Positions 2,823 to 30,132 of a stretch of DNA of 32,004 bases are shown here, one piece after another (within the stretch, counting starts at the first letter, position 1; every line of letters starts with the position of its first letter). The stretch comes from Prevotella sp. (lineage in GTDB: Bacteria; Bacteroidota; Bacteroidia; Bacteroidales; Bacteroidaceae), in contig JAGCPC010000146.1 in the NCBI GenBank assembly GCA_017642485.1, forward strand, positions 1 to 32,004, written 5' to 3'. The position numbers were made by a program, and so were the translations under genes. The notes beneath the pieces are model-generated. The model made no database searches and was not told where the DNA came from. It saw only the letters and a program-made list of their open reading frames with translations.

Positions 2823-2870
2823 TTATTTCGATATCTCGTTATTCCGACATTACGGCATGTCGGCATTTCG
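2823..2870. repeat. 8-bp-period degenerate tandem array, 6 units (fcl-gmd spacer)
   Basis: Six consecutive 8-bp units fit NNATNNCG on the plus strand (for example TTATTTCG, GCATGTCG). No two adjacent units are identical, yet no base is gained or lost. The array fills most of the 75-base gap between fcl and gmd. Confidence 0.8.
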
Positions 2871-2878
2871 AAGCCTTT

Positions 2879-4051
2879 TTATTTCTCCAGCGACTGCTTA
2901 TACCACTCAAACAGTTTCTTTACGCCATCCTCTATCTCCACCTTGTGTGTCCAACCGAGTTTGTGGAGCTTGTCAACAGAGATGAGTTTGCGCATCGTGC
3001 CATCAGGTTTGCTGGCATCAAAACTTACCTCACCCTCGAAGCCCACAGCCTTGACAACGAGTTCGGAGAGTTCACGAATGGTGAGTTCCTTACCCGTTCC
3101 CACGTTGATGTGGCAGTTGCGTATCTCGCCGAGTGAAGGGATAGCACCGCCTCTGCCTGCAGAGTGGTTACGGTCAACCTCTCCGTCAGCCTTTGCACCA
3201 TAATGCACGCTGGAGTATTTCTCTATGCCTATGATATCTGAGAAATCCACGTTAAGCAGACAGTGAACCGAAGCGTCAGCCATATCCTCTGACCACAGGA
3301 ACTCTCTCAGTGGTGTACCCGTTCCCCAAAGTGTCACCTTATTGTTCTCTATGCCATACTTTGCCAGCACCTTTTCTATCTCCTCGTGCGATGCTTTGCC
3401 GTCAACGCCCTCTACTGGTCGCTTGTTCATATCGACGGTTATAGCCTCCCAGTTCTGGTCATGTATGAGTTTGGCAAGATAAATCTTACGCATCATGGCA
3501 GGCATAACATGAGAGTTCTCAAGGTGGAAGTTGTCATTCGGACCATAGAGGTTTGTTGGCATTACAGCGATATAGTTGGTGCCATACTGCAGGTTGTACG
3601 ACTCACACATCTTCAGTCCGGCAATCTTCGCTATGGCATACTCCTCGTTGGTGTATTCCAAGGGGCTCGTCAGCAGGCAGTCCTCCGACATAGGTTGTGG
3701 AGCATTCTTTGGGTAGATACAGGTAGAACCCAGAAACAGCAGTTTCTTCACTCCGTGGGCGTATGCCTCGCTGATCACGTTGCACTGTATCTTCATGTTC
3801 ATCATCATGAAGTCAGCCCTATAGAGCGAGTTTGCCATAATGCCGCCCACAAAGGCAGCAGCAAGCACTACAGCATCAGGCCGTTCCTCGTCGAAGAACT
3901 TCCTCACCGCCAACTGATCTGTCAGGTCTAGCTCTCTGTGAGTCCTGCCCACTAGGTTTTCATACCCTCTTGTCTTCAGATTATTCCATATTGCTGACCC
4001 CACCAATCCGCGGTGACCGGCAACATATATCTTACTGTCTTTACTAAGCAT
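2879..4051 (-). CDS. fcl: GDP-L-fucose synthase
   Basis: This epimerase/reductase turns GDP-4-keto-6-deoxymannose into GDP-L-fucose, used for capsule, O-antigen and surface glycoprotein fucosylation. Visible motifs are the Rossmann GHRGLVG (residues 12-18), catalytic S109 in GSTCIYP, and Y138/K142 in YAIAK. At 390 residues it is about 70 longer than the E. coli enzyme. The extra sequence lies in two insertions, roughly 205-237 and 268-308, between otherwise conserved motifs (LWGTGTPLREFLWSEDMA and INVGTGKE). It is the first gene of the operon and has its own promoter. Confidence 0.96.
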   Translation of the reverse strand: MLSKDSKIYVAGHRGLVGSAIWNNLKTRGYENLVGRTHRELDLTDQLAVRKFFDEERPDAVVLAAAFVGGIMANSLYRADFMMMNMKIQCNVISEAYAHGVKKLLFLGSTCIYPKNAPQPMSEDCLLTSPLEYTNEEYAIAKIAGLKMCESYNLQYGTNYIAVMPTNLYGPNDNFHLENSHVMPAMMRKIYLAKLIHDQNWEAITVDMNKRPVEGVDGKASHEEIEKVLAKYGIENNKVTLWGTGTPLREFLWSEDMADASVHCLLNVDFSDIIGIEKYSSVHYGAKADGEVDRNHSAGRGGAIPSLGEIRNCHINVGTGKELTIRELSELVVKAVGFEGEVSFDASKPDGTMRKLISVDKLHKLGWTHKVEIEDGVKKLFEWYKQSLEK

Positions 4052-4077
4052 TTTTCTTGTAAACTATTTATTTCATG

Positions 4078-4109
4078 CAAAATTAAGAAAAAAACTCCGT
4101 ACCAACAAA
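4078..4109 (-). promoter_or_regulatory. Promoter of the fcl-gmd-mazG operon
   Basis: On the minus strand TTTG (4106-4109) is followed after 20 bases by TAATTTTG (4078-4085), a perfect TAnnTTTG -7 box. It predicts a start of transcription near 4072 and a leader of about 20 bases before the fcl ATG. Confidence 0.8.
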
Positions 4110-4127
4110 TTTTTAATATCTATTTTC

Positions 4128-5297
4128 TTATTCTTTAAGTCTTTTATTTGTGTAATCTTGCTTTACAAAGGCAAAAAAGAATAAAACCCCCAACGCATTC
4201 ATAATGAATGCTATCCAAAAAGCAGCAAAGTAATCATATAATTCCACCGATATACCACCTACCAACACGCCGAAGCCGATACCCAAATCCCACGATGTGA
4301 GAAACGAGGCATTCGCAGTTCCTCGACGATTGTGGGGTGCGAGATTTACAAACATATTCTGTATGGCGGGCATCATGTGACCATTACCCAAGCCTAACAG
4401 TACAGCATTGGCGAAAACACCAAAGAAATTATGGAACATGGCGAAGCACATGTATCCCACTACCGATATACACATGCCCATCGCAGCATTGTGTACCACC
4501 CTACCCTGCCTTAATGACCTGCCTCCTGTCAACCTGCTCAACATAAGACATACAGATAGTATCAAGAAATACAGTCCTGCGCCCTTTGCAAGCCCTAATT
4601 GTTCCTTAGCATAAATAGCTATGTATGTGCTAATTATGCCGTATGGAAAAGCTAAAGCTGCAAGCATCAGTCCCACTCCCCAACCTCTTACAAGAAAGAA
4701 GCGGTCGAGACGCAGGAGGCTGCCTTTTTCTTCGGAAAGGCATTGCGAAGAATTAGCTGTTCGCGTTTTCCTTGGAAATCTAACGGTATGATTGATAAAG
4801 ACTCCCATTGCTGCCATAAAGAAGCTAAGCAGAAAGATTGCCTTAAAGCTATCCATCACCTCGTATAGGAACAAGCCTATCGTAGGGCTTATCGCCGTGC
4901 CCAGATTATTAGCAAGGCCGTAGTAGCCTATACCCTCCGCTCTCCTTTCCGAAGGAAGCACATCTATCGCCACCGTGCTGTTAGCCACCGTAGTAGTGCC
5001 AAAAGGAGCACCATGCAGGGTTCTCACTATGGCAAAGAGTATCATCGAGCCACCTATCAGGTAACCTAAAAAGAAACAGGCGAATAGCCCATAGCTGACC
5101 AACAACACTGTTCTGCGATTGAACGTATCGACTATGTAGCCTGAGAAAAGCCTTGCAAACAGAGCCGTCACGGTATATCCGCTCAGCACCACGCCGATGG
5201 TGTGTTTGCCTGCGCCAAACTCCTCCGTCATATATAAAGGTAGCAAGGGCATCACCAGCATAAAGGAGAAGAATATCATAAAGTTTGCCACCCACAC
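4128..5297 (-). CDS. Major facilitator superfamily transporter
   Basis: This inner-membrane protein has about 12 hydrophobic segments. It carries the MFS loop motif after TM2 (around FSGYIVDTFNRRTVLL) and a second, degenerate copy after TM8 (LTGGRSLRQGRVV), as in drug-efflux or sugar-exporter MFS proteins. The substrate cannot be told. The GTG at 5295-5297 is the first standard start codon, but it would begin the protein inside TM1. The frame is open upstream for another 12 codons of family-like sequence (LPKLWNANYTKVW). A GGAGG lies five bases before an in-frame ATA at 5331-5333, so the true start may be there. The last gene before this one on the minus strand is uvrA's divergent neighbour, and fcl downstream has its own promoter. 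Confidence 0.88.
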   Translation of the reverse strand: MWVANFMIFFSFMLVMPLLPLYMTEEFGAGKHTIGVVLSGYTVTALFARLFSGYIVDTFNRRTVLLVSYGLFACFFLGYLIGGSMILFAIVRTLHGAPFGTTTVANSTVAIDVLPSERRAEGIGYYGLANNLGTAISPTIGLFLYEVMDSFKAIFLLSFFMAAMGVFINHTVRFPRKTRTANSSQCLSEEKGSLLRLDRFFLVRGWGVGLMLAALAFPYGIISTYIAIYAKEQLGLAKGAGLYFLILSVCLMLSRLTGGRSLRQGRVVHNAAMGMCISVVGYMCFAMFHNFFGVFANAVLLGLGNGHMMPAIQNMFVNLAPHNRRGTANASFLTSWDLGIGFGVLVGGISVELYDYFAAFWIAFIMNALGVLFFFAFVKQDYTNKRLKE

Positions 5298-5356
5298 CTT
5301 GGTGTAGTTGGCATTCCATAGCTTAGGTAATATGTTTTCCTCCGTTTTCGTATTTG

Positions 5357-5364
5357 CAAAATTA
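5357..5364 (-). promoter_or_regulatory. -7 box of the MFS gene
   Basis: TAATTTTG on the minus strand is a perfect TAnnTTTG box. No clear TTTG lies at the -33 position (TTTTCG near 5387-5392 is the closest). Transcription would begin near 5350, leaving a very short leader that includes GGAGG at 5339-5343. Confidence 0.6.
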
Positions 5365-5560
5365 CAAATAAAAAACGAGAATTGTCACGAAAACTCACAT
5401 TTTTCTTTCATTTTGATATTTCGCCAACGCTCATACGTGCGTTGAAAATCAACAAACCAGATTTACCGCCCAAATTCGTGAGTATTTCGTCATTTTTACA
5501 ACACGCTGAGCTACAAGTGGTTACAAAAACCTAAATTTTGAAGGCTGTGTTTTTAGCTCA
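5365..5560. other. Divergent intergenic region without a gene
   Basis: About 500 bases separate the MFS and uvrA promoters. I see no open frame, tRNA or riboswitch in this first part. It is A+T-rich, and the section around 5497-5550 looks like sequence I have met between Prevotella genes, but I cannot name it. The 22-bp-type repeat series follows it. Confidence 0.5.
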
Positions 5561-29669: not shown

Positions 29670-29697
29670 TTGTCTATTGTCAACTGCCAATTGCCAA
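29670..29697. repeat. 7-bp-period tandem array, 4 units
   Basis: Four heptamers fit YTGYCWA (TTGTCTA, TTGTCAA, CTGCCAA, TTGCCAA). The array starts directly after the protease stop codon and runs into the groES upstream region. Confidence 0.82.
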
Positions 29698-29699
29698 AA

Positions 29700-29744
29700 T
29701 GTCAGTCATGACACTCTTGGCACATTATTCGTAGAATAGTGCCA
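29700..29744. promoter_or_regulatory. Two inverted repeats upstream of groES, possible heat-shock operator
   Basis: TGTCA-4-TGACA (29700-29713) is followed by TGGCAC...GTGCCA (29718-29744), whose inner arms TATTC and GAATA also pair. The second repeat recalls the CIRCE element (TTAGCACTC-N9-GAGTGCTAA) but matches only in part and with wider spacing. No TAnnTTTG box is evident between here and groES. It could instead be a hairpin ending the protease transcript, though no T tract follows. Confidence 0.5.
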
Positions 29745-29805
29745 CAAAATTTCATTATTTCATACGATTAGTATTCACACTTTAACAAATCAAAACATCA
29801 ATACA

Positions 29806-30075
29806 ATGAACATTCAACCACTTGCAGACCGCGTGCTTATCAAGCCAGCAGCGGCAGAAGAGAAGATTGGCGGCATCATCATTCCTGATACCGCAAAGGA
29901 AAAACCCCTCAAGGGCGAAATCATCGCCACAGGCAACGGAACAAAGGACGAGGAGATGATCCTCAAAGTAGGCGACACAGTGCTCTACGGCAAATATGCC
30001 GGACAGGAACTCGAGTACGACGGCGAGAAGTACATGGTGATGCGCCAGTCTGACGTCATCGCTATAATTAAGTAA
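29806..30075 (+). CDS. groES: Co-chaperonin GroES
   Basis: GroES caps the GroEL ring during protein folding. At 89 residues it is typical for Bacteroidota. It begins [14 protein letters not shown], has the mobile loop [17 protein letters not shown] (about 18-34), and ends with [32 protein letters not shown]. groEL follows after an 85-base gap that contains a hairpin element and a 6-bp array. Confidence 0.98.
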
Positions 30076-30079
30076 AAGA

Positions 30080-30104
30080 CCCTCTAAATCTCCCTTAGAG
30101 GGAG
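30080..30104. repeat. Hairpin element with two mutually exclusive stems (groES-groEL spacer)
   Basis: CCCTCTAA (30080-30087) pairs perfectly with TTAGAGGG (30095-30102). CTCCC (30090-30094) pairs with GGGAG (30100-30104), and the two stems exclude each other. In reverse orientation it matches the elements at 21105 and 26932: array, C/T arm, G/A arm, then a second G-rich copy. Confidence 0.75.
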
Positions 30105-30108
30105 ACTT

Positions 30109-30132
30109 CGTTAAGGTTAACGTTAAGGTTAA
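30109..30132. repeat. 6-bp-period tandem array, 4 units
   Basis: CGTTAA and GGTTAA alternate twice. Together with the hairpin element it fills the groES-groEL spacer, ending 28 bases before the groEL ATG. Confidence 0.85.

Follow-up and report, generated by a model that had tools for sequence, protein, structure and literature searches.

Tandem arrays of short units occupy the gene junctions of a 32,004-nt stretch of Prevotella sp. DNA (contig C143 of the draft genome G000, which comprises 2.09 Mb in 193 contigs; hereafter the window), and such arrays were found to be associated with genes for the 23S-rRNA-intervening-sequence protein (IVP; PF05635/TIGR02436), a four-helix bundle. In our best reading, which is new, arrays of this kind are the inverted ends of IVP-gene elements that resemble the intervening sequences (IVSs) of 23S rRNA but lie outside rRNA.

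IVP genes are located between inverted arrays

At the oadA-oadB junction (window 21056-21131), 24 of 79 sequences, from 78 other species and the window, carried a 7-10-bp array. In five of the 78 other species (L225, L266, L267, L269 and L286) a small gene was placed there between two inverted arrays, and all five genes belonged to PF05635; these elements sit between oadA and oadB and not, as IVSs do, within 23S rRNA. In L257, L260, L279 and L239 this junction carried inverted array pairs that lack a gene. G000 itself yielded five PF05635 matches. The four strong ones lay between inverted arrays whose units match within each element and differ between all four elements (AGTTCAC, TTAAGAG, TTGAAAA and GGAGTTAAA), while the fifth, a weak match in a longer open reading frame (ORF), did not. 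Two scanned G000 proteins were assigned to both PF05635 and TIGR02436, and one IVP of this genome matched PDB entry 2rld with an E value of 2.5e-37. An IVP (S23p) gene was found in these elements and not at the window arrays.

PF05635 was present in 259 of 299 genomes of the genus and in 111 of 149 order-level genomes. An array accompanied at least one side of the IVP ORF at 32/32 loci of the genus and 25/27 loci of other Bacteroidales families, and inverted arms were detected at 31/32 (4 from G000) and 23/27, respectively, with inverted arms called when they scored better than all 20 shuffles, a chance of about one in 21. The loci were the best-scoring in the searches; L297, L329 and L340 gave no IVP ORF, and the weak L291 was excluded. 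Among control genes, for which periods of 5-10 were allowed compared to 5-12 at IVP ORFs, 12 of 89 from 18 genus genomes had an array on either side and 5 of 89 had inverted arrays; the corresponding numbers for G000 were 50 and 9 of 92. Furthermore, the flanks paired around the IVP ORF in 49 of 56 folds versus 10 of 34 control folds, and complementary stem-forming ends like those of IVSs were found at IVP elements and not at solo arrays.

Similarity of the IVP proteins was correlated with similarity of their arms (Mantel r 0.35, 0/5000 permutations, n=57, kinship ignored), which would also be expected from common descent of whole elements. IVP copy number was likewise correlated with the number of 7-bp array matches (rho 0.41, p 1.8e-6, 124 genomes, G001-G023 and G040-G140, kinship ignored). 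One IVP pair showed purifying selection (dN 0.088, dS 1.91).

As a separate observation, G133 contained two 1070-bp copies (L350:859-1928 and L351) that are 99.5% identical, about 18 kb apart, sharp-ended and equipped with an IVP-family ORF. Inverted heptad arms were not seen in these copies, and they had no Rfam match. They point to an IVP-bearing element that lacks such arms and has recently moved or been duplicated. A pair in G462 considered as a duplicate IVP element proved on comparison not to be one.

Arms and anchors recur as gene-less copies

In the IVP element L290, the arm (TTTTCAA)n is bordered on its inner side by the non-repeat anchor GTAATCATAA, and the gene-less locus L149:11925-12099 contains the same arm and anchor as an inverted pair. 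The 17-mer joining anchor and arm, GTAATCATAANTTTCAA, occurred in 22 copies in G000, with none of the backward control. Among 13 further genomes, four contained 10 copies in total and one gave a single backward match. These copies, L290 and L149:11925-12099 combine terminal inverted repeats with dispersed gene-less copies in the manner of miniature inverted-repeat transposable elements. The anchor of a 9-bp family, TAAAGACAATA, was found at 8 sites in 671 kb of G000 (backward word 0). Two of these are inside the IVP element L287 and six are elsewhere beside GGAGTTAAA-like arrays. Five of the six were scored beside a 9-bp array; at the sixth, L166:4303, a 9-bp array is visible in the sequence, although an adjoining 7-bp array scored higher. 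Two of the four array-flanked IVP elements of G000 thus share arm and anchor with gene-less arrays. The anchor-bearing copies are dispersed units and not locally born repeats. They make up a small fraction of all arrays.

Arrays are genome-wide and share a unit grammar

Spacers of at least 20 bp were delimited with a simple purpose-written ORF caller in 660 kb of G000, the window included. An array with a period of 6-9 bp was present in 148 of 377 spacers, the best period being 7 in 98, 9 in 22, 8 in 18 and 6 in 10 of them. Period 7 was detected in 102 spacers, whereas 20 dinucleotide shuffles averaged 0.65 and never exceeded 2; periods 6, 8 and 9 were detected in 12, 21 and 25 versus 0.80, 0.35 and 0.65. 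Period 10 gave 4 versus 0.60, and periods 5, 11 and 13 bp were at chance level in these spacers. Length-matched coding pieces contained 7-bp arrays in 3 of 197 cases. In G196, which has 81% nucleotide identity to the window over oadA-oadB, period 7 was found in 41 of 199 spacers versus 0.15 after shuffling. As predicted by an initial annotation of the window, spacers are therefore enriched in 6-9-bp periods relative to shuffled sequence and, for 7 bp, to coding sequence; shuffled spacers do not give equally many arrays, and the arrays are confirmed as real and genome-wide. Heptad units in spacers far above chance are shared with the short tandemly repeated repetitive (STRR) sequences and long simple sequence repeats (LSSRs). 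Few arrays were found in 20-kb samples from 18 genomes of the genus and 15 of the order; array richness is therefore a property of some lineages.

Arrays were carried by 112 of 262 codirectional, 18 of 55 convergent and 18 of 60 divergent spacers of G000. In the codirectional junctions they began a median of 3.5 nt past the upstream gene and stopped 11.5 nt short of the next; the former median is the value to set beside the initial remark that several arrays begin immediately behind a stop codon.

When 96 seven-bp arrays of G000 were aligned in register, a common core TTNANAR (reverse complement YTNTNAA) emerged with 4.53 bits per unit, whereas 60 column-permuted controls averaged 2.96 and reached 3.10 bits at most; for 39 G196 arrays, the value was 4.36 versus a control maximum of 3.55. 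The units had initially been described as unrelated between loci and private to each locus. Neither description stands: the 7-bp units of the genome share this core, the window array at 21060 has 36 further matches elsewhere in G000, and one 7-bp grammar is varied in species dialects. Among the places listed, these dialects were mainly TTRTCAA in G284 and G353 and TTRTGAA in G148 and G363. One unit column was the most variable, with 0.38 differences per neighbouring unit pair versus 0.11-0.21 in the other columns. This retention of fixed columns, with most variation confined to one, does not support the earlier suggestion of selection on spacing alone. The genus-level search found three consecutive YTDTVAA words in 326 of 398 genomes and the order-level search in 82 of 149, both counts including G000. 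With 386 matches (backward pattern 73) G000 ranked at the top of the genus; the backward control also matched in a number of genomes.

Arrays turn over rapidly at orthologous junctions

Array and unit change quickly at orthologous junctions. Between oadA and oadB the unit is AAAGTTG in G000, AAATTGA in G387 (87% identical), of the AACTGTG type in G008 and GAGAATT in G374, and between groES and groEL the period is 6 bp in the window and 7 or 8 bp in G008, G374 and G387. Arrays that are identical and unit-conserved in distant species, which would have contradicted the initial annotation, were not seen at the junctions compared. The genomes G114 and G208, which are 91% identical, differ by gain or loss of arrays in spacers (71 vs 5 bp at L190:5609), by a different unit at L190:7042 and by one 7-bp unit at L191:1675. 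The last is a whole-unit length change as known from STRRs and LSSRs, and it agrees with the copy-number differences between close species that had been anticipated.

A 36-bp array of G114 (L190:18458-18493) is identical in G386 despite flanks that are 83% alike, and is not accounted for here. The array at L199:900-962 and its orthologues in G173, G248 and G087 kept a 9-bp period, with the core CTAG changed to CCGG/CTGG in G087 and flanks about 91% alike. Another repeat, the TACGATACGC/TACGAAACGC palindromes, often adjoins arrays (right flanks of L021:121 and L025:692; junction 25374 in G196 and 21056 in G008).

Proposed explanation and alternatives

We propose, with confidence just short of even, that such arrays form the tandem-repeat arms of small elements, IVS-like and located between protein genes, and that many of the arrays are solo arms. 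A complete element would begin with an arm, continue with a PF05635/TIGR02436 IVP gene and end with the arm repeated in inverted orientation; in some families a short non-repeat anchor would border the arm on its inner side. The arms would comprise a few units of mostly 7-9 bp, and left and right arm would pair into a hairpin that encloses the gene, like 23S-rRNA IVSs. Solo arrays, including all window arrays, may be single arms or eroded gene-less copies; that all of them originate from IVP elements is a proposal. Arms could grow and shrink by slippage, RNase III might cut the paired arms out of read-through mRNA by analogy with rRNA IVSs, and IVP, perhaps together with a reverse transcriptase, may aid movement of the element. 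Rather more doubtful is the wider idea of a large class of selfish Bacteroidales elements, defined by IVP proteins and ending in tandem arrays, in which each protein lineage would have its own word, arms would co-evolve via the hairpin, gene-less copies would fill a large share of the junctions in some species, and the 23S-rRNA IVS would be a special case settled in rRNA.

Several results weigh against this explanation. Most arrays are solo: of 223 arrays outside ORFs in G000, 22 were accompanied by a partner array at a distance of up to 700 bp (inverted for 16, direct for 6), and the same applied to 12 of 92 in G196 (6 inverted, 6 direct). The assumption that a solo array matches the IVP arms of the genome in which it lies appeared to hold against random foreign IVP units (0.73 vs 0.21) and failed against G196, whose arrays match the G000 IVP arms (0.77) as well as those of G000 do (0.73) and barely match the one known IVP arm of G196 (0.04). 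G018 and G101, with 97 and 117 array matches, had no IVP match at all, and G075 had ten IVP matches and no 7-bp array match. IVP arms of the genus are mostly 8 bp in period (22/32), whereas a 7-bp period prevails among the arrays of G000. Neither anchor (GTAATCATAA, TAAAGACAATA) is present in the window. At the few filled and short junctions viewed in G114 and G208, a target-site duplication was not clearly seen, and neither this nor an empty site was demonstrated. IVP is not known to have an enzyme activity. Moreover, choosing the best-scoring IVP loci over-represents strong matches, and the Mantel and copy-number correlations ignore phylogeny.

The strongest alternative, which we nevertheless consider unlikely, is that solo arrays are microsatellites born by slippage under a polymerase or repair bias for 7 bp and TTNANAR, and that the stems of IVP elements simply draw on repeats of the same type. 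Heptads are plentiful in unrelated bacteria, and polymerase slippage has been proposed for them (PMC4679880 and PMC4692102). The whole-unit changes between close species, the solo majority, the words common to the clade and not tied to the own IVP arms, and the arrays in genomes without IVP matches all conform to this view. Local birth by slippage, already suggested in the initial annotation, thus accounts for the whole-unit changes, but not for the dispersed copies sharing arm and anchor or for inverted IVP arms carrying a matching unit. In addition, inverted partners outnumbered direct ones by 29 to 6 (plus 3 ties) among the 38 of 123 arrays with a partner at the loci of 80 species, a count that includes both arms of a pair and the arms of IVP elements.

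It is improbable that the arrays, in line with a proposal made for TAACTGA repeats, bind a nucleoid protein or regulator or act as signals for promoters or translation. Fifteen of 37 CTTTCAA arrays stand before TACCTTTG, which we take to be the Bacteroidetes -7 promoter box. Comparison of the flanks of 209 G000 arrays gave 45 and 25 register-keeping pairs versus 5-10 in controls, many of them being this box. A role in regulation would also be in line with the uneven orientation of arrays relative to genes in G000 (47 sense, 24 antisense) and with the regulator proposed in PMC4679880. However, orientation is even in G196 (12 to 14), convergent spacers carry arrays as well, and the same essential junction differs in unit and period between species. 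Stop-codon arrays were ruled out, TTCACAA-type words being open in all three frames and occurring in both orientations, and Rho or ribosome-binding sites were unsupported as a general answer, G196 showing no strand rule.

Similarly remote is the idea that the arrays represent miniature elements whose movement depends on an unrelated transposase, encoded by an insertion sequence or akin to repetitive extragenic palindromic (REP) sequences with their REP-associated tyrosine transposase (RAYT), with IVP genes as passengers: dispersed copies and inverted arms of an element without a known nuclease would suit it, as would the inverted repeats that can flank RAYT genes (PMC3733652), but IVP was the only gene repeatedly found between inverted arms here, though loci were picked for IVP and no search for RAYT or insertion-sequence genes was made.

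Relation to known systems

According to PMC4990558, the Coxiella 23S-rRNA IVS is 428 nt long, forms a stem of 28 bp, contains an S23p ORF and is excised by RNase III; two to three tandem heptads, variable in number between strains, directly precede the ORF. 23S-rRNA IVSs resemble the proposed IVS-like elements in having a PF05635 gene between complementary, stem-capable arms and, in Coxiella, heptads before the ORF. They differ in that the elements described here lie between protein genes, have tandem arrays as arms and are accompanied by dispersed gene-less copies.

Intergenic heptads were already known (PMC4692102), and TAACTGA also from five Bacteroidetes (PMC4679880). STRR, TAACTGA and LSSR heptads likewise form tandem arrays in spacers with 7-nt steps, in some Bacteroidetes as well, whereas the arrays described here constitute a degenerate word family with periods of 6-9 that is tied to the IVP gene. 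The contrast drawn in the initial annotation with cyanobacterial STRRs as keeping one shared unit was overstated, as three different tandem heptanucleotides are mentioned for one Calothrix strain in PMC4692102. REP sequences and REPINs (REP doublets) with RAYT are similar in combining an inverted-repeat-flanked gene with many gene-less spacer copies (PMC3733652), but here a four-helix-bundle protein takes the place of the tyrosine transposase and the repeats are tandem arrays. PF05635 is said in PMC10053308 to resemble Avd, the accessory protein of diversity-generating retroelements, and the IVP of L288 matched bAvd weakly (E 0.13).

Our literature search found no paper that we recognised as joining intergenic heptad arrays with IVP genes. 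The proposal connects two orphans, the intergenic heptad repeats of several phyla, on whose cause there is no agreement, and the IVP/S23p gene, which has no assigned function. Should the proposal be true, heptad arrays and IVP would form one testable element, and the function to be sought for IVP would be handling of its stem or RNA. It would further account for the species dialects and for the rapid turnover at junctions, and a heptad array close to a promoter or start codon would not need to be a regulatory site.

Arrays of the window

Nine of the ten spacer arrays listed in the initial annotation were detected by Tandem Repeats Finder (TRF; Table 1). The tenth, at 19126, is probably a degenerate array, since window 19127-19170 resembles nine sites in relatives (86-91% identity). 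A 9-bp array placed inside a gene at 26883 corresponds to a repeat that is present but weak, and probably outside the array phenomenon.

Table 1. Tandem repeats in the window
Position	Feature	Unit	Location or remark	Detection
2804..2870	8-bp array	CGNNATNN on minus strand		TRF (2818-2843) and sequence
15315..15341	7-bp array	AATCTGT		TRF
19126..19165	degenerate 7-bp array	AATTNTG	upstream of gyrA	below TRF score 30
21060..21093	7-bp array	AAAGTTG	between oadA and oadB	TRF
23043..23095	8-bp array	AACYYTYR		TRF (8/16/24 periods)
24395..24448	8-bp array	AACYNTTR	unit similar to that at 23043	TRF (8/16/24 periods)
25380..25407	7-bp array	AACYGTR		TRF
26898..26920	weak 9-bp repeat		intragenic; 2.6 copies	TRF score 32
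28251..28302	6-bp array	ATAACC	overlaps stop codon 28252-28254	TRF
29668..29697	7-bp array	AAYTGYC		TRF
30109..30132	6-bp array	CGTTAAGGTTAA	before groEL	TRF

On visual inspection, most units of the window can be read, on one strand, as AAY plus pyrimidines, the array at 2823 being an exception. The junction orthologous to 2804..2870 carries different arrays in G387 and G008. The array at 15315..15341 is missing in G387 and G196, and in G008 it is replaced, the spacer there being longer and containing inverted arrays of the GAAGTTAGA type. The junction of 25380..25407 holds other arrays in G008 and G196, and none was found there in G387.

A CCCCTCC...GGGAGGGG repeat at 21103-21131 adjoins the 21060 array and has two more matches in the G000 sections examined. 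At 5577-5710 a repeated palindrome-like stretch has many partial matches on both strands of G387. The nearest named relatives of OadA are mostly from Prevotella, Prevotellaceae and Bacteroidaceae metagenome assemblies, many of them ruminant, with at most 89% amino-acid identity. Window 8613-12848 is 91% identical to contig C4 of G196, while identity to G196 is 72-89% (mostly 77-82%) for adjacent genes of the window; judging from these identities, a recent exchange of two genes for AMP-binding enzymes is possible.

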